DNA of 64,000 nucleotides from Fluviicola sp. (GTDB lineage Bacteria > Bacteroidota > Bacteroidia > Flavobacteriales_D > Crocinitomicaceae): the NCBI RefSeq assembly GCF_039596395.1, contig NZ_JBCNJT010000002.1, positions 1,116,001-1,180,000 on the forward strand, written 5' to 3'. Position 1 is the stretch's first letter, and each line of letters opens with the position of its first letter. The position numbers were made by a program, and so were the translations under genes. The notes below the pieces were generated by a model. That model saw only the letters and a list, made by a program, of their open reading frames with translations, did no database searches and had not been told where the DNA came from. Shown piece after piece: positions 34,957 through 52,307 of this stretch.

Positions 34957-35426
34957 GATTTTTGATTAAAATAAGTGTTGATACTGTTGGTATTCTGTTT
35001 CTGTAACGGATAACTCAATGAAAATGCGGTATTCTTCCATTCCAACTTGAAATCGACCAAAGGATGATGATTCAGTGTTGTTTTTTCAATGGAAAGGGCT
35101 GTTACATCGAATAACGCTGCGTGATTTTTATAGGAACGGCTTAATTTTTCATCGAGTATGCGGTACACAATGGAATCCGAATTACGGAAGCAGGTAAGTT
35201 GATCTTTTGCCAGGTCAAATGAATCTGCCTTTTCCATGTCCTGCCAGAAAGTAGCGCGAAACTGGAAAAACCCGTTCAGTTCATTTTTAATAATGATTTC
35301 CTGCTGCAGGGACCGGTTGAAACTGTTGACCGAAAGGAAGAACAGGGAAATAAAGAGGCCGGTCAGGGAAAGGACAACCGCCAGTTCCAGAATCGAAAAT
35401 GCTTGTATGTTGGTCCGGTTCCTCAT
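34941..35426 (-). CDS. Minor pseudopilin (GspH/I/J-like)
   Basis: A 161-residue protein with a prepilin leader (NIQA), predicted cleavage before FSILE with Glu at +5, and a hydrophobic helix (LAVVLSLTGLFISLFF). The remainder is a small soluble domain with no motif I recognise. It overlaps gspF by 16 nt and the next minor pilin gene by 4 nt, so it should take part in starting the pseudopilus. Confidence 0.75.
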   Translation of the reverse strand: MRNRTNIQAFSILELAVVLSLTGLFISLFFLSVNSFNRSLQQEIIIKNELNGFFQFRATFWQDMEKADSFDLAKDQLTCFRNSDSIVYRILDEKLSRSYKNHAALFDVTALSIEKTTLNHHPLVDFKLEWKNTAFSLSYPLQKQNTNSINTYFNQKSWQRQ

Positions 35427-35764
35427 GGTTTTTTCGGCCAGGTAAATTCCTGTATCCAGTTTGTCTGAATGCTGTTTCTTAATGAAATCTGTTCGGTCTT
35501 TACCGAATCTTTTTGGTCAATCGTTGTTTCGATCGTTGTCAGCTTGTCATTCCAGAGTTTCGGATCGTAAATACTTGAATCCAGCGAATAGGAAGTGAAT
35601 AACAAAGATTGAAATTCGGATTGCTCGATTGTTTCCTGGAATTGTACTGTAGAACGTGCACTTTGAATAAAGAGTCTCGAACCCAATGCAAAACAAATCG
35701 CAATAATGGATAGAGCGATTGCAATTTCAGCGATACTGGAGGCTTTTAGCTTTCTAATTCGCAT
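35423..35764 (-). CDS. Minor pseudopilin, second
   Basis: Starting at the ATG at 35764 gives 113 residues beginning MRIRKLKA, with predicted cleavage before SSIAE (Glu at +5) and a hydrophobic helix. A longer in-frame start 17 codons upstream is unlikely because it would push the leader into the preceding gene. It overlaps the K-like gene by 19 nt. The body is short and unrecognised, typical of minor pseudopilins. Confidence 0.7.
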   Translation of the reverse strand: MRIRKLKASSIAEIAIALSIIAICFALGSRLFIQSARSTVQFQETIEQSEFQSLLFTSYSLDSSIYDPKLWNDKLTTIETTIDQKDSVKTEQISLRNSIQTNWIQEFTWPKKP

Positions 35765-36981
35765 GAAATGATTTTTTTTCGTGAATGATCGGAGATTTCC
35801 AGCCAGGCCGGACAAATAAACTCTTTCGGAAGCCTCTTGGTGGAAATAATGGCATCCAGCAGGTGATTGGTATAGGAGCCTCCGCCAGCAAGCGTCAGGG
35901 TTTCGGAAGTATTTAAGCTACCGATGATTGCTCCGTACGTTTCAGTAATTCCGCAATTAAAAATGATTCCGGCCGCAACGGCATCTTTTTGAATGGTCAG
36001 TTTGGGTTGTTTCCGGAAATCATATTGCTGGGTCGTGAGTAAAATTCCTCCCAATACGGAAGTGTTGTGTCCCAGGTAAACGGAATGCGGTTCATAAGTC
36101 GAACTGGCGGTTTTTTCGTTCATGATCAGGGTACTCGGATAACTCAAAGTCACAGAATCTTCCAACAGGATGCGTTCCGAAGCGTAGGCCTGTAAACTTC
36201 CGGTAAAACCTTGTTTGATGTAAATTTTAGGAGCGATCAGGATTACATTTTTCAACCGGGCCTGCGGATAAACAACCAATGAATCGAAGCTTTGAATGAT
36301 GATTTTTCCCTGGAGCTTTTGCGTTATCGGAATCGCCTCCAAAGACTGATAGTAAATACCTTCCTCCAAAAAACTGACCGTAGTATCTTTCGGTTCAAAA
36401 GGTTTGGAAGTCATGTTGCCGGTAAAGTAGACAGTCGAAATATTTTCAAAGCTTTTGGAAAGATTCAGGTGCAATTCTTTGACATCTTCCACCTTTCCCG
36501 AAATCAGTTCCGGGTTGGTGTAATTTTTCCCTCCGATATACGAACGGTCGACCCGTTTGTTGGGTACATAAACATCTCCTTCAATGAAGGTTTCGCCCCC
36601 GATTTTCAATCCATCGGAACCATTCCGGATAACCAGGGAGGGAATCGATTCTTCAAATTCACTGCCAATCAATGCAGATCGCGTGATGCTGCGCTGGTTT
36701 TTATAGGTTTTACTGGTAATCAGCAAATAAGATCCCCAAAGAGACTTGCGGATCAGGCTGGTATCCCCGCTTAAGTGAATAAAGCGAAGCGAGTCGTTGA
36801 CCTTGACTTTTTGCAGGCCTAATTGAATAGCCTGGCGCGAATCCAATAACAGGTGTTCCTGCCCGGTGTGATGAATTTCAATGCGCTTTTGCGTACTGAA
36901 AATAAAAAAGACACTGGAAGCAAGAAGTCCGATGAATAGTGCAAAAACGATGGCGTACGATATGGCGGAAGCACGAATCAT
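35746..36981 (-). CDS. GspK/PilX-like protein
   Basis: A 411-residue protein with an N-terminal hydrophobic helix (about 8-28) but no Glu at +5, followed by a large exported part rich in beta strands (about 130-380, with V-x-V-P-N and G-x-I-I-x-G segments that suggest a beta-helix). Size and position before the minor pseudopilins fit GspK, the large tip pilin that also lacks Glu5. The sequence is not clearly GspK, so the call rests on context. Confidence 0.5.
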   Translation of the reverse strand: MIRASAISYAIVFALFIGLLASSVFFIFSTQKRIEIHHTGQEHLLLDSRQAIQLGLQKVKVNDSLRFIHLSGDTSLIRKSLWGSYLLITSKTYKNQRSITRSALIGSEFEESIPSLVIRNGSDGLKIGGETFIEGDVYVPNKRVDRSYIGGKNYTNPELISGKVEDVKELHLNLSKSFENISTVYFTGNMTSKPFEPKDTTVSFLEEGIYYQSLEAIPITQKLQGKIIIQSFDSLVVYPQARLKNVILIAPKIYIKQGFTGSLQAYASERILLEDSVTLSYPSTLIMNEKTASSTYEPHSVYLGHNTSVLGGILLTTQQYDFRKQPKLTIQKDAVAAGIIFNCGITETYGAIIGSLNTSETLTLAGGGSYTNHLLDAIISTKRLPKEFICPAWLEISDHSRKKIISCELES

Positions 36982-37898
36982 TCCGTGCGTTTTTTCTTTT
37001 CTTTGGGTTGATCCGGTTCCTTTTGGGTTTTCTCCTTCGGTTTTTTAGACGAATCTTTCGCTGGTTTTTCCGCTTTCGGAGGTTTCGGTTCGCCTGACTT
37101 GTCCTTTTTCTTAAACTTCTTCCAAAACTTCAGTTTTTCCCAGAAATTGCTCATTTTTTGCTTGAACGTAAGCTTTTCCGAACTACCCTTTGCAGTTTTA
37201 GCATCTTCCTTTTTGGTTTTTTCAGGAACCAAAACTCCTTTTTTGTAAACGGTTTTGATCAGGCTGTCATTTTGATCCCGGGCTATTTGCGTACCGTCCA
37301 GCTTGTAATCCGAATAACGGCTTTGAGAAATCAGTTTGCCGGTAGAATCAGCGACAGTAGTTAAAACCGTTTTTTTCTTTTTCAGAATGGTCGTATCCCG
37401 GGCAATGATCTCCGTTTGGTTGGATTTATAGATGATGGTTTTTTGGATCAATCCGTCCTCATTGTAATACAACTGCTTACCGATCTGGGTTCCTTTTGAC
37501 CAGGTTTCCTGGTGAATCAGGATTCCGTTTGGGTTCCAGAATTTCCAGGTTCCATCTTTCAATCCCTTCTTAAAAAGCCCTTTTTCAGCGAGTTGATTGT
37601 TTTTGTAAAAAGACTCGTAATCACCGTTCAAAAGACTTCCGGAACTTCCACCTTGTGTGACCAAAACTTTCTGAGACTTAAACCAGTAGTAGTATTTTTT
37701 CGAATTGTATTTTTTCAGCTGACTATCATCGACATCCAGTACCCGGAATACGATTGATTTGTCATCCTGTTTGATGTGAAATTTATTTTCGATCTCAAAT
37801 TTTTGAGAAAAACCAACGAAAGAATAAAGCAGTGCAAATGCCAGAAAAACAAGACGTTCAGACAATGTGTAGACTGTTAATTTAGTTGATTGGTTCAT
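36978..37898 (-). CDS. MORN-repeat-type protein with Lys-rich tail, first gene of the secretion operon
   Basis: From the ATG at 37898 the protein has 306 residues with a signal peptide ending in GFSQ. Residues of about 90-190 contain MORN-type (toxin-antitoxin-repeat-like) units: YKNNQLAEKGLFKKGLKDGTWKF and similar, each of about 23 residues. The last 90 residues are very rich in Lys, Pro and Glu and probably disordered. Its 4-nt overlap with the K-like gene makes it part of the operon. A role as envelope adaptor or cargo is inferred. An upstream in-frame ATG (37922) is possible but lengthens the signal. Confidence 0.55.
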   Translation of the reverse strand: MNQSTKLTVYTLSERLVFLAFALLYSFVGFSQKFEIENKFHIKQDDKSIVFRVLDVDDSQLKKYNSKKYYYWFKSQKVLVTQGGSSGSLLNGDYESFYKNNQLAEKGLFKKGLKDGTWKFWNPNGILIHQETWSKGTQIGKQLYYNEDGLIQKTIIYKSNQTEIIARDTTILKKKKTVLTTVADSTGKLISQSRYSDYKLDGTQIARDQNDSLIKTVYKKGVLVPEKTKKEDAKTAKGSSEKLTFKQKMSNFWEKLKFWKKFKKKDKSGEPKPPKAEKPAKDSSKKPKEKTQKEPDQPKEKKKRTE

Positions 37899-38081
37899 AT
37901 TTTTTTTGATAAAAGTAGTCAAAATATCAAATGCTTGATTATTTTGAAGCGAACGGTATAATATAGCATATTAGTATTAATAAGCGATTAGATCAAATAA
38001 GACTATAGCAAATGATTTTGAGATCTCACTCTTTTTCCTTCTCCAACCCCTCCTCCCAATTTTATCCCTACCTTTAATCCC

Positions 38082-38756: not shown

Positions 38757-38829
38757 GTGAAGACTCTTGTCACTCCGATTAATTTTTTCATTTTTGGAAA
38801 CGAAACGAGCTTCATTACCCGTGGAAACG

Positions 38830-40125
38830 ATGAAAAAACTGCTTTACCTCTCATTACTACTCTTTTTAATTGCTTGTTCTTCCGAAAAAACAGATGAAGA
38901 ATTGCTCGAGTTGGATCGCATTGCCTTGAACGAGAACCTGGTTTCCGGAAAGGTAGTTCCTTACAAATTCGTCAAACTGATGTTCCGCGGATATGCTTCC
39001 GACGACACAACTTCTACCAAATTCAAAGCATTTAAACGCGATTCGGATAAGCTGGTCCAAAAGATCATGAAACTCAATCGTGCAGATGATTTATCGGTAA
39101 AAGATTACTGGGCCATGTACCAGCTTTACGACCAAATGGATGGGTTCGTCACGCAAACGGATGAAGACGAATTTCCGGTTATCGTAGATGCGTTTCGCAG
39201 GTTTTGGGACGGAACGAAAAGCGCTCATTATTTCAAAGGGAAGGCGAAAGCCGAACAGGAAGCGCGTGAACATGCTTTCCTGACCATTCTGGCTATGACA
39301 AGCAGCAGTTTGGGAACAGAGATCGCGTTATACGAATGCTCGGAAACAGATGTTGAGTTGCTGCCGGATTCGGAATTGAAAGGCGATCTGCGGTTTTTGA
39401 GAGGATTTGTCTTTATGCAGAAAGGTTTCTACTATTTATCTGAAAACGAGTATTCCAATAACCTGGAATGGCTGAAAAAGAATAAAAACCTGGATTTGAG
39501 AGCGACGATCAATTCCATGCAGCTGGGGCAATTTGATCAAAAACAAGCTTATGCGGCATTCCGGGCAATGAACCATTTGTACCGCGGAGTAGACCGCCTG
39601 ATGATGGAACGGGAAATAGATCACGAGCGTGTTTTGGAGGATTTTGAACAGGTATTGAAGGATTGCAAAACGCTGAAAATCGACAACGAAGCGGTTTGGG
39701 CTATTGAAGTCTATGTGCACCTCGAAAAGGGAGAGAACGATAAAGCTATTGCCTCCCTGGAAAAATTAAAGAAAAGCAAGCTGTTGACCGATGATGACAA
39801 AGCGTTGATCGATGAATCCATCGAATACCTGAAGAAAGATGATCCCGAAACGGTTCTGAAAGATGTTTACGATAAGGTATTCATGCTCAAAATTGCAAGT
39901 GCTTTCACGTATAACCGGTTGAAGGATGTAAATACGAACAAATTGCTGAAGAAAAGCAAGACCCCGAATGCATCCAAAATTGCGAAAAAGACGGAAGTGC
40001 TCGAAAATGCAGTGGATCAGATTGATGGCTTCAGCAATGGAGAAACCCTGAAGGAAGCCACGAAGAAAGCCGGTGAAGAAGGAGAAGGGTTGCTGGAAGA
40101 AGCAAAAGAATTATTTGATTTTTAA
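38830..40125 (+). CDS. Lipoprotein with helical repeats, function unknown
   Basis: From the ATG at 38830 the protein has 431 residues with lipobox LLFLIAC (Cys17). The rest is almost all charged helices with short loops, which resembles TPR-like or Sel1-like repeats, though no clear repeat consensus could be counted. The ORF could start earlier (38767) but then lacks the signal peptide. The VOC gene follows at 16 nt on the same strand, so the two may be one unit. Confidence 0.6.
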   Translation: MKKLLYLSLLLFLIACSSEKTDEELLELDRIALNENLVSGKVVPYKFVKLMFRGYASDDTTSTKFKAFKRDSDKLVQKIMKLNRADDLSVKDYWAMYQLYDQMDGFVTQTDEDEFPVIVDAFRRFWDGTKSAHYFKGKAKAEQEAREHAFLTILAMTSSSLGTEIALYECSETDVELLPDSELKGDLRFLRGFVFMQKGFYYLSENEYSNNLEWLKKNKNLDLRATINSMQLGQFDQKQAYAAFRAMNHLYRGVDRLMMEREIDHERVLEDFEQVLKDCKTLKIDNEAVWAIEVYVHLEKGENDKAIASLEKLKKSKLLTDDDKALIDESIEYLKKDDPETVLKDVYDKVFMLKIASAFTYNRLKDVNTNKLLKKSKTPNASKIAKKTEVLENAVDQIDGFSNGETLKEATKKAGEEGEGLLEEAKELFDF

Positions 40126-40559: not shown

Positions 40560-40785
40560 ATTCGCTAATCTTGCCTATAAATGCTTATATGCCTGAAAAA
40601 CAACATTGAAAAGTGAAATTGAACAAGCTACAAGATATCACGCCGAATGAAATAACTTTCAAACAAAAAGTTCGGAATTAAACAGGATGACGCTTGGAAG
40701 CGTGTTAAAAAAACGAATCTGTGCGTATAAACGCTATAAAATTAGTTTTTAAAGTTAAAATTAGGAGAGATCTATAAAATGTACG

Positions 40786-40793
40786 TACTTTTG
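40786..40793 (+). promoter_or_regulatory. -7 box TACTTTTG for the sterol operon
   Basis: An exact TANNTTTG match 24 nt before the ATG at 40818. No clear -33 TTTG was found at the usual spacing. A purine-rich GAGGAAAAG sits just before the ATG. No terminator or second strong -7 box was noticed inside the next nine genes, so this is the best candidate promoter for all of them. Confidence 0.55.
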
Positions 40794-40817
40794 TGCCCTA
40801 CAAAATGAGGAAAAGTA

Positions 40818-41921
40818 ATGATTAGAAGGGTGGCATATTATTCCTTTCATGTGTCTGAGTTGGTTTATCTTATGAAGATGAAGAAAGAGTTTAAACAATT
40901 CAAACCTTCCGAGCATCGTTTGAAAGATTTATCTCAATCCACAGATGATCTAAGTTATTGCTATGAAGCACTTAAGAAAGTGTCACGTTCTTTTGCTGTG
41001 GTGATTCAGCAGTTGCCTGAAGAACTGAAAAATCCTGTTTGTCTGTTTTACCTCGTATTAAGAGGCCTTGATACCATTGAAGATGACATGAACATCGACA
41101 ATTCCATCAAGAAAGAAATGCTGCTTACCTTTGCCGATCGCATCAATAAAGAAGAATTTACCCTTGAAAATGTGGGGGATACCCAGGATTACCAGGATTT
41201 AATGCTTCATTTCGATAAAGTAATCCGCGAATACCGGAAACTCGGGCCGCAATACCAGGAAGTCATTACCGAAATTACGCATGAAATGGCGATCGGGATG
41301 AACAAGTATGCACATGAAACAGTTGGAAGTTACCAGGATTGGGACGATTACTGTTATTATGTTGCCGGATTGGTCGGAATCGGTTTGAGCAGGTTGTTCC
41401 TCGCTTCAAAACTGGAAACCAGCGATAAGTTGGCCAACAAAAGCCTGAGCAATGAAATGGGCTTGTTCCTTCAAAAAACAAACATCATTCGTGATTTTGC
41501 AGAAGATCTGGAGCAGGGGCGTATTTTCTGGCCGGAGGAATCCTGGAAAAATAAAGCGAATACTTTACACGAATTACAGGCAAATGAGGAAAAAGGGCTT
41601 GCTGCATTGAACGAAACCGTGCTAAACGCGCTTGGCCACGTTCCTGCTTGCCTGGAATTTTTGGAATGCCTGGAAAATCAACAAGTCTTCCGTTTTTGTG
41701 CCATCCCGCAATTGATGGCTATTGCAACCTTGAAAGAATTGTACAACAATCCCGATGTTTTACACAAAAATGTAAAAATCAGAAAGGGGAAAACAGCGAA
41801 ATACTTTATCGCTATTCAGGACTTTAACAGTACGAAAAAAGAATTCGTTGCCATTCTGGAGAGTCTGGAGAAACTGGATAAAACAGGTAAAATCAAATCA
41901 ATATTAGCCAAAATTCAATAA
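40818..41921 (+). CDS. Squalene synthase, eukaryotic type
   Basis: Condenses two farnesyl diphosphates head-to-head to presqualene diphosphate and reduces it to squalene. The 367-residue protein matches eukaryotic FDFT1/ERG9 motif for motif: SRSFAVVIQQL, the first Asp motif DTIEDD at 85-90, YVAGLVGIGLSRLF at 181-194, LQKTNIIRDFAED with the second Asp motif at 226-230, and VFRFCAIPQLMAIATL at 290-305. Bacteria normally use the HpnCDE set instead. It lacks the C-terminal membrane anchor of the eukaryotic protein. Start is uncertain: ATG at 40818 (used, with a purine-rich stretch before it) or 40872. It is the first gene of the operon, 1 nt before squalene epoxidase. Confidence 0.93.
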   Translation: MIRRVAYYSFHVSELVYLMKMKKEFKQFKPSEHRLKDLSQSTDDLSYCYEALKKVSRSFAVVIQQLPEELKNPVCLFYLVLRGLDTIEDDMNIDNSIKKEMLLTFADRINKEEFTLENVGDTQDYQDLMLHFDKVIREYRKLGPQYQEVITEITHEMAIGMNKYAHETVGSYQDWDDYCYYVAGLVGIGLSRLFLASKLETSDKLANKSLSNEMGLFLQKTNIIRDFAEDLEQGRIFWPEESWKNKANTLHELQANEEKGLAALNETVLNALGHVPACLEFLECLENQQVFRFCAIPQLMAIATLKELYNNPDVLHKNVKIRKGKTAKYFIAIQDFNSTKKEFVAILESLEKLDKTGKIKSILAKIQ

Positions 41922-41922
41922 G

Positions 41923-43239
41923 ATGAGCACAGGTGAATTTGATATTATAGTCATTGGTGCCGGAGTTGCAGGAGGAGTGTTTGCTGCTTCTCAACCTGCA
42001 GGCACACGCATTTTGGTCGTGGAGCGCGACCTGACAGAACCGGATAGAATTATCGGTGAATTAATGCAGCCGGGCGGAATCCTGGCTTTGAAAGAATTGG
42101 GATTGAGCCATTTGCTGGAAGGCATCGACGCACAGGAAGTCAATGGTTATAACCTGATCAAGGGAAACGAACGTTTTACGATCAACTACGATGAAATCCA
42201 AAAAGGCATCAAAGGAATCGGTTTGAGAAACGGGAAATTCCTGACCAACATCCGCAAGGAACTGGAGAAAAGAGAAAACATTACAGTGGTTCAGGGAAAT
42301 ATCACTCAAATCCTGGAAAAAGATAACACCATCATCGGCGTAAGCTATACGCAGGAAGACGGAACAACGGTTTCCCAATATGCAAAATTGACTGTCGTTT
42401 CCGACGGGCCGATGTCTGTACTCCGCGATAAGTTGAGCAAAGTGAACAAGAAGGTCACTTCTTACTTCATGGGATTGGTACTGAAGGACCTGAATTTGGA
42501 ATTCCCGTCCTACGGTCACATGATCGTTACCAGTGATTTTCCGATCCTGGTTTACCCGATTCACACCAACGCATACCGCATATTAATCGACTATCCGGGC
42601 GGGAAAGCTCCTAAAATGGGTAAAGAGTCAATTGAACGTTTAAAAGAAAGCGTTGTAAAAATATTGCCGGAAGAAATGATCGGTTCATTTTTGAAGGCAC
42701 TGGAAGAAGAATCTTTTAAAGTAATGCCGAACCATTCCATGAAAGGTCAGGCATTCCGCAGGAAAGGTGCCGCACTTTTGGGTGATTCCTTAAATATGAG
42801 ACATCCGTTGACGGGTGGTGGAATGACAGCGACTTTCTCAGATATTCTTTGTCTGAACGGTCAATTGGCTGGAATTGATTTCCAGGATGAAACGAAATTG
42901 GAATCCGCCGTTAATGAATATTATAAAAGCCGGGGAAAAAATGTAGAGACCATCAATATTTTGGCAAACGCTTTGTATGAAGTGTTCACCAATGATGAAT
43001 TGAAGGATGCATGCTTTGAATACTTGCAAAAAGGAGGAGAACAGGCTACAGGCCCGCTTTCCATTCTTTCTGGAATAAACAGGGACAAACAATTCCTGTT
43101 GAAACACTTTTTCAAAGTGGCCATGCAGCACCCGATACATTTTATTACAAAACCGGGTAAACAAATACGCTTATACAAAAATGCCTCACGAATTATTCGT
43201 CCGATTTTAAAGGATGAAGGAGTTCCGGCAATGATCTGA
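41923..43239 (+). CDS. Squalene monooxygenase (epoxidase), eukaryotic-like
   Basis: Converts squalene to 2,3-oxidosqualene with FAD and O2. The 438-residue protein has the FAD-binding motif G12-A-G14-V-A-G17, the ERDLTEPDR...GELMQPGG segment of the ERG1 family, the D161-G162 FAD/NADPH motif and the second FAD motif G287-D-S-L-N-M-R-H-P-L-T-G-G-G-M at 287-301. These are the signature blocks of ERG1/SQLE, not of general monooxygenases. Compared with eukaryotic enzymes it has no N-terminal membrane helix. It lies directly after squalene synthase and makes the substrate of the cyclase at the end of the operon. Confidence 0.93.
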   Translation: MSTGEFDIIVIGAGVAGGVFAASQPAGTRILVVERDLTEPDRIIGELMQPGGILALKELGLSHLLEGIDAQEVNGYNLIKGNERFTINYDEIQKGIKGIGLRNGKFLTNIRKELEKRENITVVQGNITQILEKDNTIIGVSYTQEDGTTVSQYAKLTVVSDGPMSVLRDKLSKVNKKVTSYFMGLVLKDLNLEFPSYGHMIVTSDFPILVYPIHTNAYRILIDYPGGKAPKMGKESIERLKESVVKILPEEMIGSFLKALEEESFKVMPNHSMKGQAFRRKGAALLGDSLNMRHPLTGGGMTATFSDILCLNGQLAGIDFQDETKLESAVNEYYKSRGKNVETINILANALYEVFTNDELKDACFEYLQKGGEQATGPLSILSGINRDKQFLLKHFFKVAMQHPIHFITKPGKQIRLYKNASRIIRPILKDEGVPAMI

Positions 43240-43246
43240 TGATCTG

Positions 43247-44266
43247 ATGGAGAAAATTGAACACGAATCGCTCGAAGCAGCGGACTTAAGAAAAAAGAAT
43301 CATTTGGATTTGGCTTTTGCTTCGCAAAGTGCCCTAACGGATGGTCGTTTTTATTACGAACCGATGTTGGAAGGTCATCCGGAACAAGCGGACATGCCCA
43401 TTCAGCTGGGAAATAAAACGATGCGTTATCCGGTTTGGATTTCAAGCATGACCGGTGGTACCTCTGCAGCAGGCCCGATCAACAAAATGCTGGCAAAAAC
43501 AGCCGGTAAATACGGTTTCGGGATGGGATTGGGTTCTTGCCGGGTGATTCTGGAAGACGATACCTATTTCGATGATTTTAACCTGCGCCCGATTTTAGGG
43601 GATGCATCTCCGCTATACGCCAATGTGGGAATTGCACAGATTGAGCGATTGATTGATAAAGGACAGACCTCGAAGTTAAAGGCATTGGTAAATAAGCTGG
43701 ATGCAGACGGGTTGATCGTACACGTGAATCCGCTGCAGGAATGGTTGCAGCCGGAAGGAGATTTGATTCAGCGTTCTCCGCTTGTTACCATCAAGCAATT
43801 GCTGAACGAAATCGACACGAATATCATTGTGAAGGAAGTAGGCCAGGGATTTGGTCCTGAAAGCATGAGAGAATTGCTGAAATTACCGATTCTGGCACTC
43901 GACTTTGCTGCAAACGGCGGAACGAACTTCTCCAAATTAGAATTATTGCGTAACGAACCATTGAAAGCACATTATGAAGATGTAATTGCTTTGGGGCATT
44001 CTGCTTCCGAAATGGTCGATTTTTTAAATACCGCAATCCAGGAACTGGGATCTGAACGTAAATGTAATAATGTGATTATAAGTGGTGGGATTAAAAACTT
44101 TCTGGATGGTTATTACGTGACCTCCAAAGCAAACATCCCGGCAGTTTATGGTCAGGCAGCGCCATTTTTAAAGTATGCAAATGAATCACAGGAAGCCCTG
44201 GATAACTTTGCTGAAATACAAATAAAAGGCTTATTAATGGCGCAAAAATTTCTAAAAATAAGATAA
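43247..44266 (+). CDS. fni: Isopentenyl-diphosphate isomerase, type 2 (FMN-dependent)
   Basis: Interconverts IPP and DMAPP, giving the starter for prenyl chain growth. The 339-residue protein has the N-terminal KKNHLDLAF segment (a variant of RKxDHI), SSMTGGTSAAG, GMGLGSCR and the C-terminal IISGGIKNFLDG FMN-binding part of the type 2 enzyme. It is unrelated to the type 1 Idi. The stop overlaps the ATG of the HMG-CoA reductase gene by 1 nt. Confidence 0.93.
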   Translation: MEKIEHESLEAADLRKKNHLDLAFASQSALTDGRFYYEPMLEGHPEQADMPIQLGNKTMRYPVWISSMTGGTSAAGPINKMLAKTAGKYGFGMGLGSCRVILEDDTYFDDFNLRPILGDASPLYANVGIAQIERLIDKGQTSKLKALVNKLDADGLIVHVNPLQEWLQPEGDLIQRSPLVTIKQLLNEIDTNIIVKEVGQGFGPESMRELLKLPILALDFAANGGTNFSKLELLRNEPLKAHYEDVIALGHSASEMVDFLNTAIQELGSERKCNNVIISGGIKNFLDGYYVTSKANIPAVYGQAAPFLKYANESQEALDNFAEIQIKGLLMAQKFLKIR

Positions 44267-45576
44267 TGGAATTAATAGAAGGATTCTCAAAAAAGAGCAA
44301 GCAGGAGAAGTTGGAAGCGATTACAAAATTCTTTGAATCGCCTGAGAAAACGATGAAAACGTTTAAAAGTTTTGATCACCCGGAGGCTGCTGTTCAGGAA
44401 GTGATTAATGAGTTTAGTGAAAATACGATTTCGAATTTCCACTTGCCGTACAGCATCGCTCCGAACTTTTTGATCAATGGAAAGACCTTTGCCGTTCCGA
44501 TGGTCATTGAAGAAAGTTCCGTGGTGGCTGCAGCTGCAAACAGCGCGAAATTCTGGTCAGCTTTCGGAGGTTTCCATACAGAAATTGTTGATACCGAAAA
44601 AGTAGGGCAGGTTCATTTCCTGTGGCACGATGACATTCAAAAACTGAATAACCGTTTTGATGAATTAAAGCAATTGCTATTCAGCGGTTCAGAAGATATT
44701 ACCGTAAACATGCGTAACCGCGGTGGAGGCGTTAAAAATATTATTCTGAAAGATCTTTCAGACAAGGAGCCGGGATTGATGCAGCTGTTTGTAACCTTTG
44801 AAACCATGGATTCAATGGGGGCAAATTTCGTGAATTCCTGCCTGGAAAGATTCGCGGATATCTTTAGAAACTGGCATCAGAACCAACCGGAATTTAAAAA
44901 AGACGGACTGGAAATCATTATGTCCATTCTTTCCAACCTGACACCGAATTGTGTAGTGAAATGCTGGGTGGAAACAGACGTGAAAAACCTGGATGGAATC
45001 GTTGCAGGTGTTTCCGGGAAAGAGTTCGCGAAAAAATTCCATACGGCAGTAAGAATTGCGCAGGTAGATCCTTACCGTGCAACCACCCACAACAAAGGAA
45101 TTTACAACGGAATTGATGCAGTGGTATTGGCAACCGGAAATGACTTCAGAGCGGTTGAAGCTTGCGGCCACGCGTTTGCAAGTATGAACGGCGGTTATTC
45201 TTCTTTGACAAACTGTACAATTGAGAACGATATCTTCCGGTTTGAACTGAATTTACCGATCGCATTGGGAGTAGTTGGCGGATTGACGAACTTACACCCG
45301 TTGGTAAAGCTTTCACACGAATTGCTGGATTTCCCGAACGCAAGAGAATTGATGGGAATCGCTGCAGCAGCAGGATTGGCAAACAATTTCGGTGCGGTTA
45401 AATCATTGACAACAACCGGTATTCAGCAAGGACACATGAAAATGCACTTGTTCAATATCATGAACCAGTTGGAAGTGAAAAAAGAAGACCGCGACAAGAT
45501 CGTAGCTTACTTCAAAGACAAGAATGTCTCCGTATCTGCAGTTCGTACCTATGTTGAATCCCTTCAATTAGTATAA
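44266..45576 (+). CDS. HMG-CoA reductase, class II
   Basis: Reduces HMG-CoA to mevalonate, the committed step. The 436-residue protein has the bacterial class II catalytic set: Glu82/83 in PMVIEESSV, Lys277 in TTHNKG, Asp284 in GIDAVV and His390 in QQGHM, with the cofactor-binding segment D182-S-M-G-A-N187. It has no membrane domain, as expected for class II. HMG-CoA synthase and thiolase are not in the window, so they must lie elsewhere. The following gene starts directly after the stop. Confidence 0.93.
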   Translation: MELIEGFSKKSKQEKLEAITKFFESPEKTMKTFKSFDHPEAAVQEVINEFSENTISNFHLPYSIAPNFLINGKTFAVPMVIEESSVVAAAANSAKFWSAFGGFHTEIVDTEKVGQVHFLWHDDIQKLNNRFDELKQLLFSGSEDITVNMRNRGGGVKNIILKDLSDKEPGLMQLFVTFETMDSMGANFVNSCLERFADIFRNWHQNQPEFKKDGLEIIMSILSNLTPNCVVKCWVETDVKNLDGIVAGVSGKEFAKKFHTAVRIAQVDPYRATTHNKGIYNGIDAVVLATGNDFRAVEACGHAFASMNGGYSSLTNCTIENDIFRFELNLPIALGVVGGLTNLHPLVKLSHELLDFPNARELMGIAAAAGLANNFGAVKSLTTTGIQQGHMKMHLFNIMNQLEVKKEDRDKIVAYFKDKNVSVSAVRTYVESLQLV

Positions 45577-46479
45577 TTGACAGTTACTACAGAAAATACA
45601 ATAAGGACCTATAAGGCATCAGGAAAACTGATGCTTTTTGGTGAATACCTGGTTCTGAACGGATCAGATAGTCTGGCCTTTCCTCTGAAATTCGGACAAA
45701 CACTTACCGTGACAAAGTCCGATGAGCTTACCTGGGAAAGTTATGCCAAAGACGGCATGTGGTTTTCTGCTGCTATGAGCAGTGATTTCACCGTGCTTAA
45801 AACCAATAACGAAGAAGTTGCGGAAATCCTGAGACAATTGCTCCTGGTAATCCGTGCGGAAAAACCGGATCTGGATTTCAACCAGGCATTCAAATCAGAA
45901 GCAAATTTCGATTTGAATTGGGGAATCGGTTCCAGTTCTACCCTGATCAGCTTATTGAGCCAATGGTCGGGAGTAGCGGCAAGGAAACTGCTGGATGTGT
46001 CTTTCGGCGGATCGGGATATGACGTGGCTTGTGCAACTGCAGAAGCGGCAATTATTTATGCCAACGGCGAAGTGAAAAAAGAAGTACATCTTCAGGAGTC
46101 GGTGACCAATCAATTGTTGTTTATTTACCTGGGAAACAAGCAAAACTCCCGCGAAGAAATCAAGCGTTTCAAAGACCGGATCGTTACTCAGGAACACATC
46201 GATACCATGAATGCATTGATCTCAAATGCGTTGCAAACAAGCGAAATTGAGGTGTTCGAGCAGCAATTGGACCAATCTGAAGAGTTAATTTCTTCCGTTA
46301 TAGGGACTACTAAATTAAAAGAGCGTTTATTTGCAGATTATCCCTACAGCATCAAATCGTTGGGTGCATGGGGCGGAGATTTTTTTATGGCGACATACAG
46401 AGACCTCCAAACGGCAAAAAACTATTTTGAGGATAAAGGACACGATGTATTATTTACCTACAAGGAATTTATAAAATAA
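45577..46479 (+). CDS. GHMP kinase of the GYDIA type, probable phosphomevalonate kinase
   Basis: The 300-residue protein has an N-terminal KLMLFGEYLVLNG block, the phosphate loop GIGSSS at 116-121 and the family-naming motif GSGYDVA at 145-151 (Val in place of Ile). The start is a TTG placed directly after the stop of the HMG-CoA reductase gene; there is no ATG before the first conserved block, so coupling by re-initiation is likely. The operon has a clear mevalonate kinase and a clear decarboxylase but no classical phosphomevalonate kinase. By elimination I assign that step here; this is an inference, not a motif-based call. Confidence 0.75.
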   Translation: MTVTTENTIRTYKASGKLMLFGEYLVLNGSDSLAFPLKFGQTLTVTKSDELTWESYAKDGMWFSAAMSSDFTVLKTNNEEVAEILRQLLLVIRAEKPDLDFNQAFKSEANFDLNWGIGSSSTLISLLSQWSGVAARKLLDVSFGGSGYDVACATAEAAIIYANGEVKKEVHLQESVTNQLLFIYLGNKQNSREEIKRFKDRIVTQEHIDTMNALISNALQTSEIEVFEQQLDQSEELISSVIGTTKLKERLFADYPYSIKSLGAWGGDFFMATYRDLQTAKNYFEDKGHDVLFTYKEFIK

Positions 46480-47535
46480 ATGGAAACAGACAAGGAACTG
46501 ATGAATAACGTAAAAGTAACGTGGCGATGCCCGTCTAATATTGCAATTGTTAAATACTGGGGGAAAAAGGGAAATCAAATTCCTTGTAATTCCTCCCTGA
46601 GTTTGACATTGTCCAATTCGTTCACAGAAGTTGAGGCCGAATTATCCGACAAAACATCGGATGAAGTGGTTCAGTTATCCTACTTTTTTGAAGGAGCAGT
46701 GAATGAGAAATTCGGTCAACGCGTTGCTAAGTTTTTGTTTGATAACCGCGAATACTTCCCGTTTATCGGTGAGAAAGCGATTACGATCAATTCCTCGAAC
46801 AGTTTCCCGCATTCAGCAGGAATTGCTTCTTCTGCATCTGCTTTCGGAGCTATTTCCCTGGCACTTTTAGACATTGCTTACAGCTTGCAGGGAAAAGAAA
46901 AAGACGCCACTTTTTACACGGAAGCAAGTAATTTGGCCCGATTGGGAAGCGGAAGTGCATCACGCAGTATGTACCCGGCATTTGCACAATGGGGAGAAAA
47001 TGACCAAATCCAAAACTCTTCAAACGAGCATGCGATCGAGATCAAAGACGTACATCCGGTGTTCCAAAACATGAAAGATGCCATTTTGATCATCGAAGAC
47101 GAGCCGAAAAAAGTATCCAGTTCAGTAGGTCACTCGCTGATGAATAATCATCCATATGCAGAAAACCGTTTCAAGCAGGCAAACGAACGCACGGCGGAAT
47201 TGGTGGAAATCCTGAAGACCGGCAACATGGAAGCATTCATTCACCTATGTGAATCGGAAGCATTGACATTGCACGCGATGATGATGACATCTATGGATTA
47301 TTATCTGCTGGTAAAACCGGGAACCATTACAGCAATTGAAAGATTGATGGAATTCCGCAAGGAAAATAATATTCCGGTTTGTTTTACACTGGATGCAGGA
47401 CCGAACGTTCACGTGCTTTATCCGAAGGCTTACGAAGCACAGGTAGAAGAGTTTATCCATAACGGTTTGCGCGACACGTATAAAAAAGTCATTTTCGATC
47501 AGGAAGGGGCCGGACCGACAAAATTGAATAGTTAA
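46480..47535 (+). CDS. mvaD: Diphosphomevalonate decarboxylase
   Basis: Turns mevalonate diphosphate into IPP with ATP. The 351-residue GHMP protein has SNIAIVKYWGKKG near residue 20, the phosphate loop HSAGIASSASAFG at 111-123, SGSASRSMYP at 157-166 and the catalytic Asp305 in LDAGPN. It starts directly after the GYDIA kinase stop (no gap); the internal ATG at 46501 is a possible alternative start. Confidence 0.92.
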   Translation: METDKELMNNVKVTWRCPSNIAIVKYWGKKGNQIPCNSSLSLTLSNSFTEVEAELSDKTSDEVVQLSYFFEGAVNEKFGQRVAKFLFDNREYFPFIGEKAITINSSNSFPHSAGIASSASAFGAISLALLDIAYSLQGKEKDATFYTEASNLARLGSGSASRSMYPAFAQWGENDQIQNSSNEHAIEIKDVHPVFQNMKDAILIIEDEPKKVSSSVGHSLMNNHPYAENRFKQANERTAELVEILKTGNMEAFIHLCESEALTLHAMMMTSMDYYLLVKPGTITAIERLMEFRKENNIPVCFTLDAGPNVHVLYPKAYEAQVEEFIHNGLRDTYKKVIFDQEGAGPTKLNS

Positions 47536-47538
47536 GAA

Positions 47539-48480
47539 ATGGAAAGCGTTCATTCAAAAATTCTGGTGTTTGGAGAATACGGCGTTTTACACAATGGAAT
47601 GGCCCTGACTATTCCGTTCAGTAAATTCTCCGGGGAATTGTGCTACCCTGAAAACGGGGAAGAAAGCGCAATGGCCGTATTGTCGAACAAAGGTATTAGA
47701 GAATTCTTCAAACATATTTTAGAAAATCACACCGACGATACATTCAAACTGAATGTGAACAAACTGTCCAAAGAACTGGACAAAGGATTGTTCTTCAGAA
47801 GTGATATTCCACAAGGTTTCGGACTGGGAAGTTCCGGTGCATTGGTTGCCGCAATATTCCTGCGCTACCTGGAAAAGGCCGGAGATTTCAAAGATGAATT
47901 GAAACATTTGACCATGGATCATATTCAGAGCCTGAAAAGCTATCTGGGAAGCCTGGAAGGGCATTTTCACGGGAAAAGTTCCGGGATTGATCCTTTGAGT
48001 ATCATTATCAATAAACCCTTGTTGCTGAAAGCCAATAAGGAAATCGAACGGGTGGACATTCCTGCTTACGATGAAGCCGGAAAGAATGTCATGTTCCTGT
48101 TGAATACCGGAATAGCACGAAATTCCGAGAAACTGATCAAGCAATTCAACACCGCTTGCGAAAAGGAAGATGTTCAGAAAAAAATGGAAACCAAATTGAT
48201 CGAGTATACCAATGCAGGAATCATGAATTTCCTGAACGGAGATACCGAGAGTTTTTATCAAAATCTGCAGAAATTGGTGAAATTCCAACTGGATGAAATG
48301 CACTACCTGATCCCGGAAAAATACCAGGGAATTGTCAAGCAAGGCCTGGATTCTGAAGATTATTACCTGAAGATTTGCGGTGCCGGCGGTGGCGGATACA
48401 TGATCGGGTTTACTCAAAACTGGGAAAAAACCCAGGAATTATTAAAAGACGAAGAATTAGAAGTTTTCTATAGATTTTAA
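47539..48480 (+). CDS. Mevalonate kinase
   Basis: Phosphorylates mevalonate. The 313-residue GHMP protein has KILVFGEYGVL at the N-terminus, the loop GFGLGSSGAL at 93-102 and the mevalonate-kinase signature SLEGHFHGKSSGIDP, with catalytic Glu140 and Asp151. The C-terminal CGAGGGGYMIG motif is present. It is clearly distinct from the GYDIA kinase 1 kb upstream. Spacing to neighbours is 3 nt on each side. Confidence 0.9.
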   Translation: MESVHSKILVFGEYGVLHNGMALTIPFSKFSGELCYPENGEESAMAVLSNKGIREFFKHILENHTDDTFKLNVNKLSKELDKGLFFRSDIPQGFGLGSSGALVAAIFLRYLEKAGDFKDELKHLTMDHIQSLKSYLGSLEGHFHGKSSGIDPLSIIINKPLLLKANKEIERVDIPAYDEAGKNVMFLLNTGIARNSEKLIKQFNTACEKEDVQKKMETKLIEYTNAGIMNFLNGDTESFYQNLQKLVKFQLDEMHYLIPEKYQGIVKQGLDSEDYYLKICGAGGGGYMIGFTQNWEKTQELLKDEELEVFYRF

Positions 48481-48483
48481 AGT

Positions 48484-49470
48484 ATGACAACAACAACTAC
48501 AATAAAACAGGATTTGGAAATCCAAAGACAGGCAATCGTTCAATTTTTGGAGACATCTGCATTGGAAGGTTTCCCGAGTAATTTGGCGGATTCCACCTAC
48601 CATATCATGACATTGGAAGGAAAGCGTTTGCGTCCGATCATGGTGTTGATGGCTGCACAGGGATTTGGCGTAAGTACTGAAGCTGCTATGTCTGCGGCTA
48701 TTTCAATCGAAGTGTTCCACAATTTCACATTAGTACACGACGATATCATGGACAAAGCTCCTTTGCGAAGAGGAACAATCACGGTTCATGAGAAATACGG
48801 CGTAGATAAAGCGATTGTAACAGGAGATGCGATGTTGCCTCATTCCGTTGGGTTGTTGATCAAAGGAAATGAAGATAAATCAGTGGTTTTGTTGAAAAGC
48901 TTCCTGAAAATGGCTCAGGAAGTAATGGAAGGACAGCAGTACGATATGGAATTCGAAACACAGGACGTAGTAACTGTGGACGAATACATGAACATGATCC
49001 GCCTGAAGACATCTGTACTGTTCGGATGTGCTTGTGAAGTAGGTGCGATTTTGGGGAATGCTTCCGAGGAAGATCAGAAAAAACTATACGATTTCGGATT
49101 GTACACAGGATTGGCATTCCAGATCATGGATGACTACCTGGATACATTCGGGGATGATTCATTCGGAAAACGAATCGGAGGCGATATCCTGCTGAATAAA
49201 AAAACATACTTGCTGATCAATGCCATGCAACACGCCAATGCAGATCAAAAAGCACGTATCACCGAATTATTTGCTGAGAAAAACGAAGAAGCGAAAATCA
49301 GCGGGTTCCAGGCTATTTTTAAGGAAATCGGTGTAGATAAAATCGCTTTGGATAAAATGGAAGAATTGCACGACAAATCTGTTGAAGCGGTGATGTCTTC
49401 CGGGCTTTCCGAAGATGATAAACGAAAAATGATCGAATTGGGCGAAATCATGCTTCGCAGAACAACCTGA
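48484..49470 (+). CDS. Polyprenyl (farnesyl/geranylgeranyl) diphosphate synthase
   Basis: Builds the prenyl chain from IPP and DMAPP. The 328-residue protein has GKRLRP at 46-51, the first aspartate-rich motif D86-D-I-M-D90, RRG at 95-97 and the second motif D216-D-Y-L-D220. The first motif has no 2-residue insertion, and Phe81 lies five residues before it, as in the short-chain archaeal-type synthases. The product length therefore cannot be read safely: squalene synthase downstream in the pathway needs C15, but GGPP is possible. Located just before the cyclase gene (6-nt gap). Confidence 0.88.
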   Translation: MTTTTTIKQDLEIQRQAIVQFLETSALEGFPSNLADSTYHIMTLEGKRLRPIMVLMAAQGFGVSTEAAMSAAISIEVFHNFTLVHDDIMDKAPLRRGTITVHEKYGVDKAIVTGDAMLPHSVGLLIKGNEDKSVVLLKSFLKMAQEVMEGQQYDMEFETQDVVTVDEYMNMIRLKTSVLFGCACEVGAILGNASEEDQKKLYDFGLYTGLAFQIMDDYLDTFGDDSFGKRIGGDILLNKKTYLLINAMQHANADQKARITELFAEKNEEAKISGFQAIFKEIGVDKIALDKMEELHDKSVEAVMSSGLSEDDKRKMIELGEIMLRRTT

Positions 49471-49476
49471 TAAGCG

Positions 49477-51732
49477 ATGAATTTCGATCAAAAAGATCCC
49501 GCTTATTTTTGGGATACCTGGAAGTTTGCTTCGAAAAACGGACAACAAACCTGGCAGTTTGAACTTCCCGAAGAGTTGAGAGGAATCATTCAATCGGATT
49601 CCGATTGGGACAAACCGGAAGGAATGGCTTTTTTAAAAGCATTTGACCGTGCGTTTCTTTTTGACAAGAAAGTCAACCCGAATTCCGCTGACCGGGTCAT
49701 CCGTTATTTGCGCAGGAAGCAAGTCGGAGATCCGGAGATTATCTCATCAGATGGTTCAGGTTCACTCAAAGAAAGAGCATACACGAGCCTGCTGAATGGT
49801 TTTTCGTTTTACGAAACCATGCAGGAACCGGATGGAAATTGGGCAGGTGATTACGGAGGCCCGCTTTTCCTGATCCCGGGATTGGTCATTGCATCTTATA
49901 TGACCGGATCGCCTTTCGAAAGGCCGATGCAGGTTCTGATCAAGCGCAATATCTGGAATCACCAGAACGAAGACGGTGGCTGGGGATTACACATCGAAGG
50001 CCATTCAACCATGTTCGGAACAGTCATGCAATACGTGACTTTGCGTATTTTGGGAGAAGATCTTTCCAATCCGGACATGAAACGCGCACAGGATTGGATT
50101 TTAAGCCACGGTGGCGCAACAAGAGTTCCGCAATGGGGGAAGTTCTACCTGTCGCTGCTGAACGTTTATGAGTGGAAAGGAAATGACGCGCTTTTGCCGG
50201 AAATGTGGAAATTTCCGAAATGGGTTCCTTTTCATCCCGGAAAATACTGGTGCCACAACCGCATGATCTTTTTGCCGATGTCATACTGCTACGGTAAAAA
50301 GGTGAAGGCAGAACTGACTCCGTTACTCAAAGAATTACGAAACGAACTCTATACCACTTCCTATGATTCCATCGACTGGAAAAAAGCACGCAGGGAAGCT
50401 TGTGAAACAGATATTTACAACCCGGTTAGCAAATGGTATCTCCGTTTGAGTGGTATTATAAATGCCTACGAGCGCATCCATTCGAAACGTTTCCGGAAAA
50501 AATCCCTTAAGTACGTAGAAGATTACATCGATTTCGAAGATACTTATACGCGGTACATCAATATTGGCCCTGTAAACCAGGCCATCAACTCCATTTGTGC
50601 GTGGCACAATCACGGGAAAGATTCCGAACAGTTCAAAGGCCACGTAAGACGCTGGAAAGATTATTTGTGGATTGCAGAGGATGGAGCAAAAATGGCGGGT
50701 TATAACGGATCTCAATTATGGGATACTGCATTTGCAGGCCAGGCTTTGATCGAAGCAGATATGGAAACTGCTTTCCCGGAAATGGCTGAGAAGATTTACA
50801 GCTACATCGATACCACCCAAATTGAGCGCAATGCAAAAGATTACGACAAATTCTGGGGGGATGTAACACTCGGATGCTGGCCGTTTTCAACCATTGATCA
50901 CGGATGGGCAATCACGGATTGTACGTCGGAAGGAATGAAAACCGCAGTTTTGTACAACAACAAGGAACACATCAACAAGAAAAACCACATCGGTCTGGAA
51001 CGGTTGAAACCTGCTGTTGACTGGTTGTTAAAGATGCAAAATAAAGACGGTGGTTGGGCATCTTACGAAAGACAAAGAGCTCCGGAATGGATTGAAGTAT
51101 TGAATCCAGCTTTGTTATTCGAGAATATCATGACAGAGGCAAGGTATACGGAATGTTCTTCTGCCTCTATCCAGGGATTAAAAGAATTCACTAAACACCA
51201 CGATTATCGACGGGAAGATATCAAAGTTGCCCTGGAGCGTGGAGCCAAATTCCTGAAATCCAAACAAGATCCGGATGGTTCCTGGTACGGATGCTGGGCG
51301 GTGTGTTACACCTATGGTACCTGGTTCGGAATTGAAGGGTTGTTAACTGCCGGTTCTCCAAGTTACGAAAACGGAACGCCTTCCCCGGAAATCCAAAAAG
51401 GTTGTGAGTTTTTGTTGAGTAAACAACGCGCTGACGGAAGCTGGGGAGAATCTTTCGAATCCTGTGTGCAACATCGCTATGTAGAACACGAAGACGGACA
51501 AATAATCAATACGGCCTGGGCACTTTTGGCTTTAATGAAAGCGAAGCATCCCAACAAAGCAGCTATTGAAAAAGGAATAGAATTTATCCTTTCCCGCCAG
51601 GAAACAAACGGCGATTTTCCGCAGGAAGGAGTTTCAGGCATCTTCAACGGGAATTGTGCAATTACCTACACGGCTTACCGGAATGTTTTCCCTTTGTGGG
51701 CGATAGCGCGTTATTACCGCTGGTATTCCTAA
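49477..51732 (+). CDS. Oxidosqualene cyclase, cycloartenol/lanosterol synthase type
   Basis: Cyclises 2,3-oxidosqualene to a tetracyclic sterol precursor. The 751-residue protein carries the D481-C-T-S-E motif of oxidosqualene cyclases in place of the DxDD of squalene-hopene cyclases, with the partner Cys560 and several QW repeats (for example QDPDGSWYG and QRADGSW). The catalytic pocket has His260 (WCHNRM), Tyr360 (TRYINIGP) and Ile479 (AITDCTSE), matching His257/Tyr410/Ile481 of Arabidopsis cycloartenol synthase; lanosterol synthases have Val or Thr at the last position. Trp415, Trp607 and Phe723 fit known pocket aromatics. It is the last gene, before a strong terminator. Product assignment to cycloartenol is inference. 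Confidence 0.93.
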   Translation: MNFDQKDPAYFWDTWKFASKNGQQTWQFELPEELRGIIQSDSDWDKPEGMAFLKAFDRAFLFDKKVNPNSADRVIRYLRRKQVGDPEIISSDGSGSLKERAYTSLLNGFSFYETMQEPDGNWAGDYGGPLFLIPGLVIASYMTGSPFERPMQVLIKRNIWNHQNEDGGWGLHIEGHSTMFGTVMQYVTLRILGEDLSNPDMKRAQDWILSHGGATRVPQWGKFYLSLLNVYEWKGNDALLPEMWKFPKWVPFHPGKYWCHNRMIFLPMSYCYGKKVKAELTPLLKELRNELYTTSYDSIDWKKARREACETDIYNPVSKWYLRLSGIINAYERIHSKRFRKKSLKYVEDYIDFEDTYTRYINIGPVNQAINSICAWHNHGKDSEQFKGHVRRWKDYLWIAEDGAKMAGYNGSQLWDTAFAGQALIEADMETAFPEMAEKIYSYIDTTQIERNAKDYDKFWGDVTLGCWPFSTIDHGWAITDCTSEGMKTAVLYNNKEHINKKNHIGLERLKPAVDWLLKMQNKDGGWASYERQRAPEWIEVLNPALLFENIMTEARYTECSSASIQGLKEFTKHHDYRREDIKVALERGAKFLKSKQDPDGSWYGCWAVCYTYGTWFGIEGLLTAGSPSYENGTPSPEIQKGCEFLLSKQRADGSWGESFESCVQHRYVEHEDGQIINTAWALLALMKAKHPNKAAIEKGIEFILSRQETNGDFPQEGVSGIFNGNCAITYTAYRNVFPLWAIARYYRWYS

Positions 51733-51812: not shown

Positions 51813-52307
51813 CTATTTTTTGAAGGTTGGCAATAGTTGGTCCAATTCGTTTAAGGTCATGGTGAATCCGCCCTGGAAGCCCATTTCGATCATTTGCTCC
51901 ATGCGCTCCAGCGATTCGTTGTAAATGGAAATATCCACGCGGGTGATCCCGTTTTCTTCACTAAAGTTAAAATCCCAATTGGAACCGGGAAGGTTCGGAG
52001 TTCCGTCCTTGTCTGCAAAAGCATTCAGGTATTTGAAATTCGTTTTCGGATTAATGGCCGTATATTCCTGGATAGACCAATGCTCCTGGCCTTCGGGGCT
52101 TACCATGGCATAAAACCGCTTTCCGCCAACTTTGAAATCCATGACTTTCGTTCGGGATGTCCAAGGTTTCGGCGCCCACCATTGGTCCAAATATTCTTGT
52201 TTGGTAAATGCGTCCCAAACCAAATCCAGTTCTGCATCAAATTGTTTGTTCACAAATACCATTTTGGAGGATTTGTCAACGGTAAAGTCAAAGAGTAAAT
52301 TTTTCAT
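51813..52307 (-). CDS. SRPBCC (AHSA1-like) domain protein
   Basis: A 164-residue single-domain protein of the helix-grip fold: [30 protein letters not shown] at the N-terminus is typical of Bacteroidota SRPBCC proteins, with WSIQEYTAI and a C-terminal long helix ([14 protein letters not shown]). Such proteins bind small hydrophobic ligands; the ligand is unknown. It is convergent with the sterol operon, so a link to sterols is only a positional possibility. Unusual repeats lie upstream. Confidence 0.88.

Follow-up and report, generated by a model that had tools for sequence, protein, structure and literature searches.

The locus described here raises the question of what a bacterium makes with mevalonate genes that stand in one uninterrupted row with genes of sterol formation, and from where the starting substrate comes, when another isoprenoid route is apparently present in the same cell. 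It lies in a window of 64,000 nucleotides from the freshwater bacterium Fluviicola sp. (family Crocinitomicaceae; assembly GCF_039596395.1, contig NZ_JBCNJT010000002.1, forward-strand positions 1,116,001 to 1,180,000); by window we mean this whole stretch, and positions refer to it. Nine open reading frames (ORFs) of 300-751 amino acids (aa) occupy the + strand between 40818 and 51732. We propose, with considerable confidence, that this nine-gene unit converts 3-hydroxy-3-methylglutaryl-CoA (HMG-CoA) to cycloartenol, a sterol of plant type, and that its mevalonate branch represents a second isoprenoid line, dedicated to sterol.

The unit begins with a squalene synthase (SQS; 40818-41921), matched by the model of the single-enzyme, eukaryote type (TIGR01559, 387.5 bits, cut-off 286.75; PF00494, 171.3), and a squalene epoxidase, or monooxygenase (SE; 41923-43239; PF08491, 245.6 bits, cut-off 20.1). 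They are followed by a divergent type 2 isopentenyl-diphosphate isomerase (IDI2; 43247-44266), with 176.9 bits (E 5e-52) to TIGR02151, cut-off 281.3, and no Pfam match at E<=0.001, and by a class II HMG-CoA reductase (HMGR; 44266-45576; TIGR00532, 274.9, cut-off 259.95; PF00368, 290.1). Three genes of the middle part code for a GHMP kinase of the GYDIA family, proposed here as phosphomevalonate kinase (45577-46479; NF040656, 278.8, cut-off 225), for diphosphomevalonate decarboxylase (MVD; 46480-47535; PF22700 and PF18376; TIGR01240, 170.5, cut-off 171.35) and for a likely mevalonate kinase (MVK; 47539-48480; TIGR00549, 80.8 bits, cut-off 163.05). A short-chain prenyl diphosphate synthase, likely farnesyl diphosphate synthase (FPPS; 48484-49470; PF00348, 229.8, cut-off 27), and an oxidosqualene cyclase of the cycloartenol-synthase type (OSC; 49477-51732; TIGR01787, 656, cut-off 322.7) close the row. 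Successive gaps are 1, 7, -1 (an overlap of 1 nt), 0, 0, 3, 3 and 6 nt. The initial annotation had described nine same-strand genes with gaps of at most 7 nt, and both the ORF coordinates and the family scores bear this out.

Some of these assignments have points against them. IDI2, MVK and, narrowly, MVD, which does pass in Pfam, score under their NCBIfam cut-offs, OSC scores under the subfamily cut-off of TIGR03463, and the prenyl synthase is above the cut-off of no NCBIfam model. For the GYDIA kinase, Foldseek puts mevalonate kinases first and the phosphomevalonate kinase 1k47 only 20th, and its sequence profile gives 51.3 bits to the mevalonate kinase 1kkh versus 19.0 to 3gon. In the case of MVK and MVD, it is still the expected families that lead, below the curated cut-offs, and profiles against PDB agree: the top matches of MVD are (diphospho)mevalonate decarboxylases (3lto, 182.6 bits) and the top match of MVK is Staphylococcus aureus mevalonate kinase 2x7i (46.9 bits). 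Structure comparison of MVK does not tell the kinase types apart (8tfo Z 21.2, 3k17 21.1, galactokinase 21.0, 3gon 20.8). The prenyl synthase carries Phe five residues ahead of its first DDxxD, and by the chain-length rule we take this position to point to farnesyl diphosphate synthase.

NF040656, to which the GYDIA kinase belongs, is a hypothetical family in NCBIfam, and the papers that a literature search gave for its name deal, by title, with other subjects. The gene adjoins HMGR in 20 of 21 genomes with HMGR and was unseen in the 19.9 kb available from the remaining one (G078). An AlphaFold model of the protein (pLDDT 91.8), compared by VIA, has phosphomevalonate kinase of Streptococcus pneumoniae, 3gon, as its top match (Z 25.9, root-mean-square deviation 2.8, 273 residues), followed by Listeria 3k17 (Z 25.3) and 8tfo (24.7); heptokinase (23.8), galactokinase (23.2) and mevalonate kinase 1kkh (23.0) are lower, all of them of one fold. 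As the pathway needs a phosphomevalonate kinase and this is the sole unassigned gene of the unit, we propose it for the role, which position and this one structural ranking make reasonably probable.

In the proposed pathway, class II HMG-CoA reductase would form mevalonate from HMG-CoA, and mevalonate kinase, the GYDIA kinase (as phosphomevalonate kinase) and diphosphomevalonate decarboxylase would carry mevalonate to isopentenyl diphosphate. The type 2 isomerase and the prenyl synthase would then yield farnesyl diphosphate, from which squalene synthase would make squalene, squalene epoxidase 2,3-oxidosqualene and the cyclase cycloartenol. Gene content and order, their conservation, co-occurrence and the cyclase residues are observed, and we infer in this scheme a single transcript, dedication of the flux, the kinase assignment, completeness of the other isoprenoid pathway and any bypass of HMG-CoA synthase. 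Gene content agrees with the earlier claim of one module, in a member of Bacteroidota, that starts at HMG-CoA and ends at a cyclised precursor of sterols.

To place the unit in its family, we used a panel of 150 genomes (handles beginning with G), evenly drawn from a larger group, in which G000 is the window's own genome (4,635,315 bases in 5 contigs). The nearest named relatives of the window organism are Fluviicola; its cyclase is 88% identical to that of F. chungangensis. A cyclase was found in 16 of the 150 genomes. All nine genes are contiguous and in the same order in 11 of them, the window and 10 others, among which G046 reads SQS-SE-IDI2-HMGR-GYDIA-MVD-MVK-FPPS-OSC exactly as the window does. 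Three more (G129, G140 and G055) keep the order as far as their contig ends show, SQS and SE being unseen in G055. An order uninterrupted in 10 other genomes and seen partially in three is not due to chance. In the remaining two, G003 and G025, IDI2-HMGR-GYDIA-MVD-MVK-FPPS share one contig and the sterol genes are on another, where OSC is divergent from SQS-SE and a further prenyl synthase is present. On a contig recorded as uncultured Bacteroidetes bacterium (L015), OSC likewise runs divergently to SQS and SE, both identified there by eye, and the four ORFs of >=150 aa that are listed beyond position 3000 include no mevalonate-like gene. The nine-gene unit may thus have arisen by fusion of two clusters that were originally separate. 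One Fluviicola-type unit is found in CP034120.1 (L002, G088), deposited as Glaciecola amylolytica THG-3.7 and coded in the window's genus in the panel; the name of the record looks wrong.

The product of the line can be predicted from the cyclase. It matches PF13243 (202.6) and PF13249 (161.4) above their cut-offs, scores 682.3 bits with human lanosterol synthase 1w6k, and has its catalytic Asp, D481, in TDCTSE, aligned to human DCTAE. Residues Y409, H475 and I479 correspond to Y381/H449/I453 in human numbering, that is, to the cycloartenol triad Y/H/I. According to the part of Wei et al. 2016 available to us (PMC4919349), I453 correlates completely with cycloartenol in the organisms tested and V453 goes with lanosterol. 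The same part of the paper reports cycloartenol as the sole sterol found by gas chromatography-mass spectrometry (2016) in the lipid extract of grown F. taffensis RW262, and gives Fluta_3221 as its SE and Fluta_3214 as its OSC, tags that fit places 2 and 9 of the nine-gene order. The F. taffensis cyclase has the motif Y,H,I and was grouped with amoebal cyclases (PMC5101207, in the portion consulted). G046, which we take as F. taffensis RW262, likewise has a Y/H/I cyclase, 87% identical to that of the window. Judged by its residues and by this analogy, cycloartenol is the best prediction for the window cyclase, and a close relative is already known to form this product. The end product, which had initially been left open, should not be regarded as such, as F. 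taffensis, which carries the same operon, makes cycloartenol and shares the triad with the window cyclase.

The triad is not uniform in the family. Y/H/I is present in 7 of the 16 cyclases (window, G046, G080, G088, G096, G003, G025) and Y/H/V in 9 (G070, G104, G129, G033, G140, G004, G026, G042, G055); the I-form cyclases read HGW where the V-form cyclases read HAW. Three genomes with Y/H/V and the same operon (G070 and the near-identical G104 and G129) belong to the window's genus. Under the rule that V453 goes with lanosterol (PMC4919349), these sister species are predicted to make another product than the one predicted for the window. Within the genus, cyclases of the I group share 87.2% identity and those of G070 and G104 share 89.0%, compared to 82.4% when the I group is set against the V group. 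The cyclase is the sole gene of the nine that clearly separates both groups, the other eight showing no gap.

Regarding steps after the cyclase, no P450 was found anywhere in the window's genome, hence no CYP51, for which a genome check had been suggested; a eukaryote-like post-cyclase route was rejected on this ground. The fatty-acid-hydroxylase domain has five matches in the genome. Against NCBIfam at E<=1e-5, two of them resemble weakly the ornithine lipid hydroxylase OlsE (69.1 and 67.2 bits, cut-off 475), and for the other three there is no match; the one that was compared with PDB had no match there. C-4 oxidation of the sterol in the window organism thus finds no support. In the part of PMC4919349 consulted, F. 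taffensis is likewise described as having no homologs of sterol genes downstream of osc.

The window's genome also contains IspG (G000:C2:931129-932952, 417.6 bits), a marker enzyme of the methylerythritol phosphate (MEP) pathway, which may be complete here. Across the panel, IspG is found in 141 genomes, HMG-CoA reductase in 21 and OSC in 16, and all 16 genomes with OSC have both reductase and IspG. Among the 125 IspG genomes without OSC, the reductase is present in one (G023) and absent from 124 (Fisher p 3.5e-20 for co-occurrence of cyclase and reductase among IspG genomes, kinship ignored). Cyclase genomes are spread over 5 of 24 genera, and three of these five include genomes with as well as without the cyclase; in the window's genus, HMGR is found in 8 of 8 OSC genomes (the window's included) and in none of the 6 others, which have IspG. 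The mevalonate pathway is not the usual isoprenoid route of the Crocinitomicaceae genomes sampled, and in the window its genes are located together with those of the sterol product. Because IspG is in the genome and the reductase goes with the cyclase across the family, it is most likely that MEP serves the cell and that the operon is a second, sterol-dedicated isoprenoid line, present or absent as a block. The initial reading of the mevalonate genes as a supply line therefore stands as regards a module starting from HMG-CoA, and is probably too simple as regards the supply line of the cell, since IspG is also there. Literature searches, in those parts of the sources that were available, returned no description of the nine-gene unit for Fluviicola with mevalonate or cycloartenol, and none of a second sterol-linked mevalonate line in this family.

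The unit is preceded by a conserved segment at 40700-40817 (+ strand), a possible promoter, with a TAnnTTTG element (TACTTTTG, 40786-40793). Over 73-149 nt before the ATG, the window matches 8 of the 9 other carriers compared at 75-87% (not G140); the comparison includes the near-identical G104 and G129, and the g5 and g4 carriers are not in it. Beyond this segment the sequences are mostly unalignable, with the exception of G096, which has 1.8 kb more in common with the window. TAnnTTTG is found at -29 to -40 in 9 of 10 carriers, and it may be a promoter element of the kind known in Bacteroidota. Short gaps, conserved order and the upstream segment lead us to consider the nine co-oriented genes as one probable operon.

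Surroundings of the unit, compared over 4-5 kb per side, vary from genome to genome. Flanking genes differ even between congeners, and only G096 shares the window's upstream neighbours among the genomes compared; the downstream gene is shared only with G080 and G088, in opposite orientation, and three g5 genomes have upstream neighbours common among themselves. The downstream gene (51813-52307, - strand), adjoining the module, codes for an AHSA1-domain protein. The gene at 38767-40125 (+ strand), upstream of the unit, encodes 452 aa with no match in Pfam; of the other genomes compared, only G096 has it next to the unit (81%). Further upstream, 27019-37922 (- strand) contains secretin, T2SSE ATPase and T2SSF domains of a type II secretion or pilus-like system; 4 of the 8 proteins scanned in this run have no Pfam match at E<=1e-5.

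The module has the same GC content as the rest of the window (43.1%), so that composition gives no sign of foreign origin. Transfer was examined by comparing module identity with that of two joined reference proteins, an MCC-beta-like carboxyltransferase and IspG, these two genes being the only references. For G033, which belongs to a different genus, identity with the window amounts to 84.4% in the module and 75.2% in the references, the reverse of six within-genus pairs (module 88.0-89.4%, references 91.1-94.1%). G140, of a third genus, gives 79.5% for the module versus 71.8% for the references. The cyclase tree places G033 inside the Y/H/V group of the window's genus (SH-aLRT 98). MCC-beta alone is 81.9% identical between the window and G033, not far under the module. 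Four-fold sites of this pair favour transfer (46.7% vs 35.2%, z 3.9), with z 2.7 also in the within-genus control of window and G046, and are saturated for G140 (31.6 vs 31.2). The distances to G033 make it fairly likely that the block moved after the genera had split. A transfer between G003 and G025 (90.0 vs 77.8) was dropped, as it rests on an odd IspG. This IspG (G025:C111:24060-25526, L208) is a short one, with a frame of 509 aa compared to ~640-670 for most full-length matches, and lies on the cyclase contig; it is 56.1% identical to that of the congener G003, while MCC-beta of the two is 95.4% identical.

Several parts of this picture have a competing explanation. Vertical descent with many losses may account for the distribution of the block instead of transfer; the same order of genera in module and reference trees (obtained by a quick method) is in its favour, and movement of the block is favoured by the distances given above. 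As to the product, lanosterol, parkeol or an arborinol-like pentacycle could take the place of cycloartenol. An arborinol-like pentacycle is known from Eudoraea; a literature search on arborinol and bacterial cyclases gave no match. The TIGR03463 score of the window cyclase, 657.9 bits versus a cut-off of 851, points to another triterpenol, although it is the top score among the five models listed, and close relatives with the same operon and Y/H/V indicate that residues linked to the product are easily changed in this clade. We did not take this cut-off as defining, because the cyclase of a measured cycloartenol producer is 87% identical; together with the triad shared with that producer and the full correlation between I453 and cycloartenol among the organisms tested (Wei 2016, PMC4919349, as far as the part consulted goes), this makes a different product very improbable. 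The mevalonate operon could also supply isoprenoids in general, as mevalonate genes do in many Bacteroidota, the sterol genes simply standing beside it and IspG being a remnant. Four of the five reductase genomes without cyclase (G013, G021, G078 and G135; G021 is only 59% complete) have no detected IspG, so that mevalonate seems to replace MEP there and seems able to do so, and it counts against a dedicated line that IspG was the sole MEP marker searched. However, IspG is matched in all 16 OSC genomes, and the six members of the window's genus that lack OSC all have IspG and no HMGR; we consider a general route unlikely. A sterol-dedicated second line leading to cycloartenol thus remains our preferred reading.

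The entry into this line is the point at which two explanations come closest. HMG-CoA synthase had been noted as missing from the operon, which is correct, and profile and protein searches found none in the whole genome. PF01154 gives nothing at E<=0.001 in the window's genome, while it matches in archaea and Escherichia coli; in 199 genomes of the order it has 24 matches, 21 of them in one other family (f3), so that the model can see Bacteroidota enzymes. PF08540 is found in 2 of the 150 family genomes, above cut-off in G135 and weakly in G086, and in none of the 16 cyclase genomes, and the 511-aa HMG-CoA synthase of G135 used as a query finds itself alone in the 150 genomes. Without a detected synthase the pathway as drawn has no demonstrated entry, which counts against it. 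Leucine breakdown would yield HMG-CoA directly. An MCC-beta-like carboxyltransferase (L102) is encoded in the window's genome, with AccD1 (517 bits), 9tps, named propionyl-CoA carboxylase beta (506), 9yx0 (503) and MCC-beta (494) as its best PDB matches and other propionyl-CoA carboxylase chains at <=281 bits; it is likely MCC-beta. Relatives of L102 at E<=1e-140 are present in 138 of 150 genomes, including all 16 with cyclase. As the gene is about equally common in genomes without the operon, it shows only that a leucine route may be available. Leucine as the source of HMG-CoA for the sterol line is therefore a tentative proposal, to which we give slightly less than an even chance. A divergent enzyme of thiolase fold, missed by the HMG-CoA synthase models, might make HMG-CoA from acetyl-CoA as usual, and we rate this only a little lower. 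Weak PF01154 scores in some order members, from shorter frames of 254-331 aa that resemble KAS III in length alone, the metabolic need for an entry, and the fact that the leucine route leans on one gene with mixed best PDB matches are in favour of such an enzyme; the silence of PF01154 in the window's genome and the results with PF08540 and the G135 query are against it. Three reductase genomes outside the cyclase set (G013, G021, G078) have neither IspG nor HMG-CoA synthase detected, and the fourth, G135, has a synthase.

The most far-reaching formulation would be a self-contained, transferable cassette for one membrane sterol, in bacteria that already form isoprenoids through MEP, with its own promoter, leucine-derived HMG-CoA, isolated flux, movement as a block between genera and a product switch at G/A450 and I/V453 (human numbering). 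All of these together we consider doubtful. What makes the locus worth testing is the apparent dedicated mevalonate line beside MEP, the undetected HMG-CoA synthase and the I/V switch. What sterols do in bacteria is unsettled, and their flux is difficult to tell apart from that of essential isoprenoids. Should the mevalonate line prove dedicated, a strain deleted for HMG-CoA reductase would be expected to lose the sterol but keep its quinones and cell-wall lipids; the type strain of Fluviicola is culturable, which allows a clean genetic test in the genus, and close genomes with or without the block, and with I453 or V453, offer a ready comparison. Absence of HMG-CoA synthase, if true, could mean bacterial sterol carbon derived from leucine, which would have a bearing on isotope biomarkers.

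The closest known system is that of F. taffensis RW262 (Wei et al. 2016, PMC4919349, seen in part), where the nine genes recur in identical order (G046) and the cyclase likewise has the Y/H/I triad. The window represents another species, with a cyclase 87% identical and a GC content of 43.1%, compared to 36.5% of the F. taffensis genome (PMC3236050, in the portion consulted). In the part of it available to us, PMC4919349 treats SE, OSC and later sterol genes of F. taffensis rather than mevalonate, MEP or HMG-CoA synthase. Leucine carbon enters isoprenoids via 3-methylglutaconyl-CoA in myxobacteria (PMC7321100) and, through leucine-derived HMG-CoA, sterols in trypanosomes (PMC5993337), according to the excerpts consulted; in the window's genome, a search limited to MCC-beta found the MCC-beta-like carboxyltransferase. 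Both isoprenoid routes occur in 2.42% of 4,249 species, and in Streptomyces mevalonate genes are found inside biosynthetic clusters beside the MEP pathway, as stated in the part of a review available (PMC13001223). The present unit differs from the Streptomyces clusters in its predicted sterol product, its Bacteroidota host and the lack of a detected HMG-CoA synthase. It resembles them in that a second isoprenoid route appears to be placed with the genes of one product in a bacterium that probably uses MEP.

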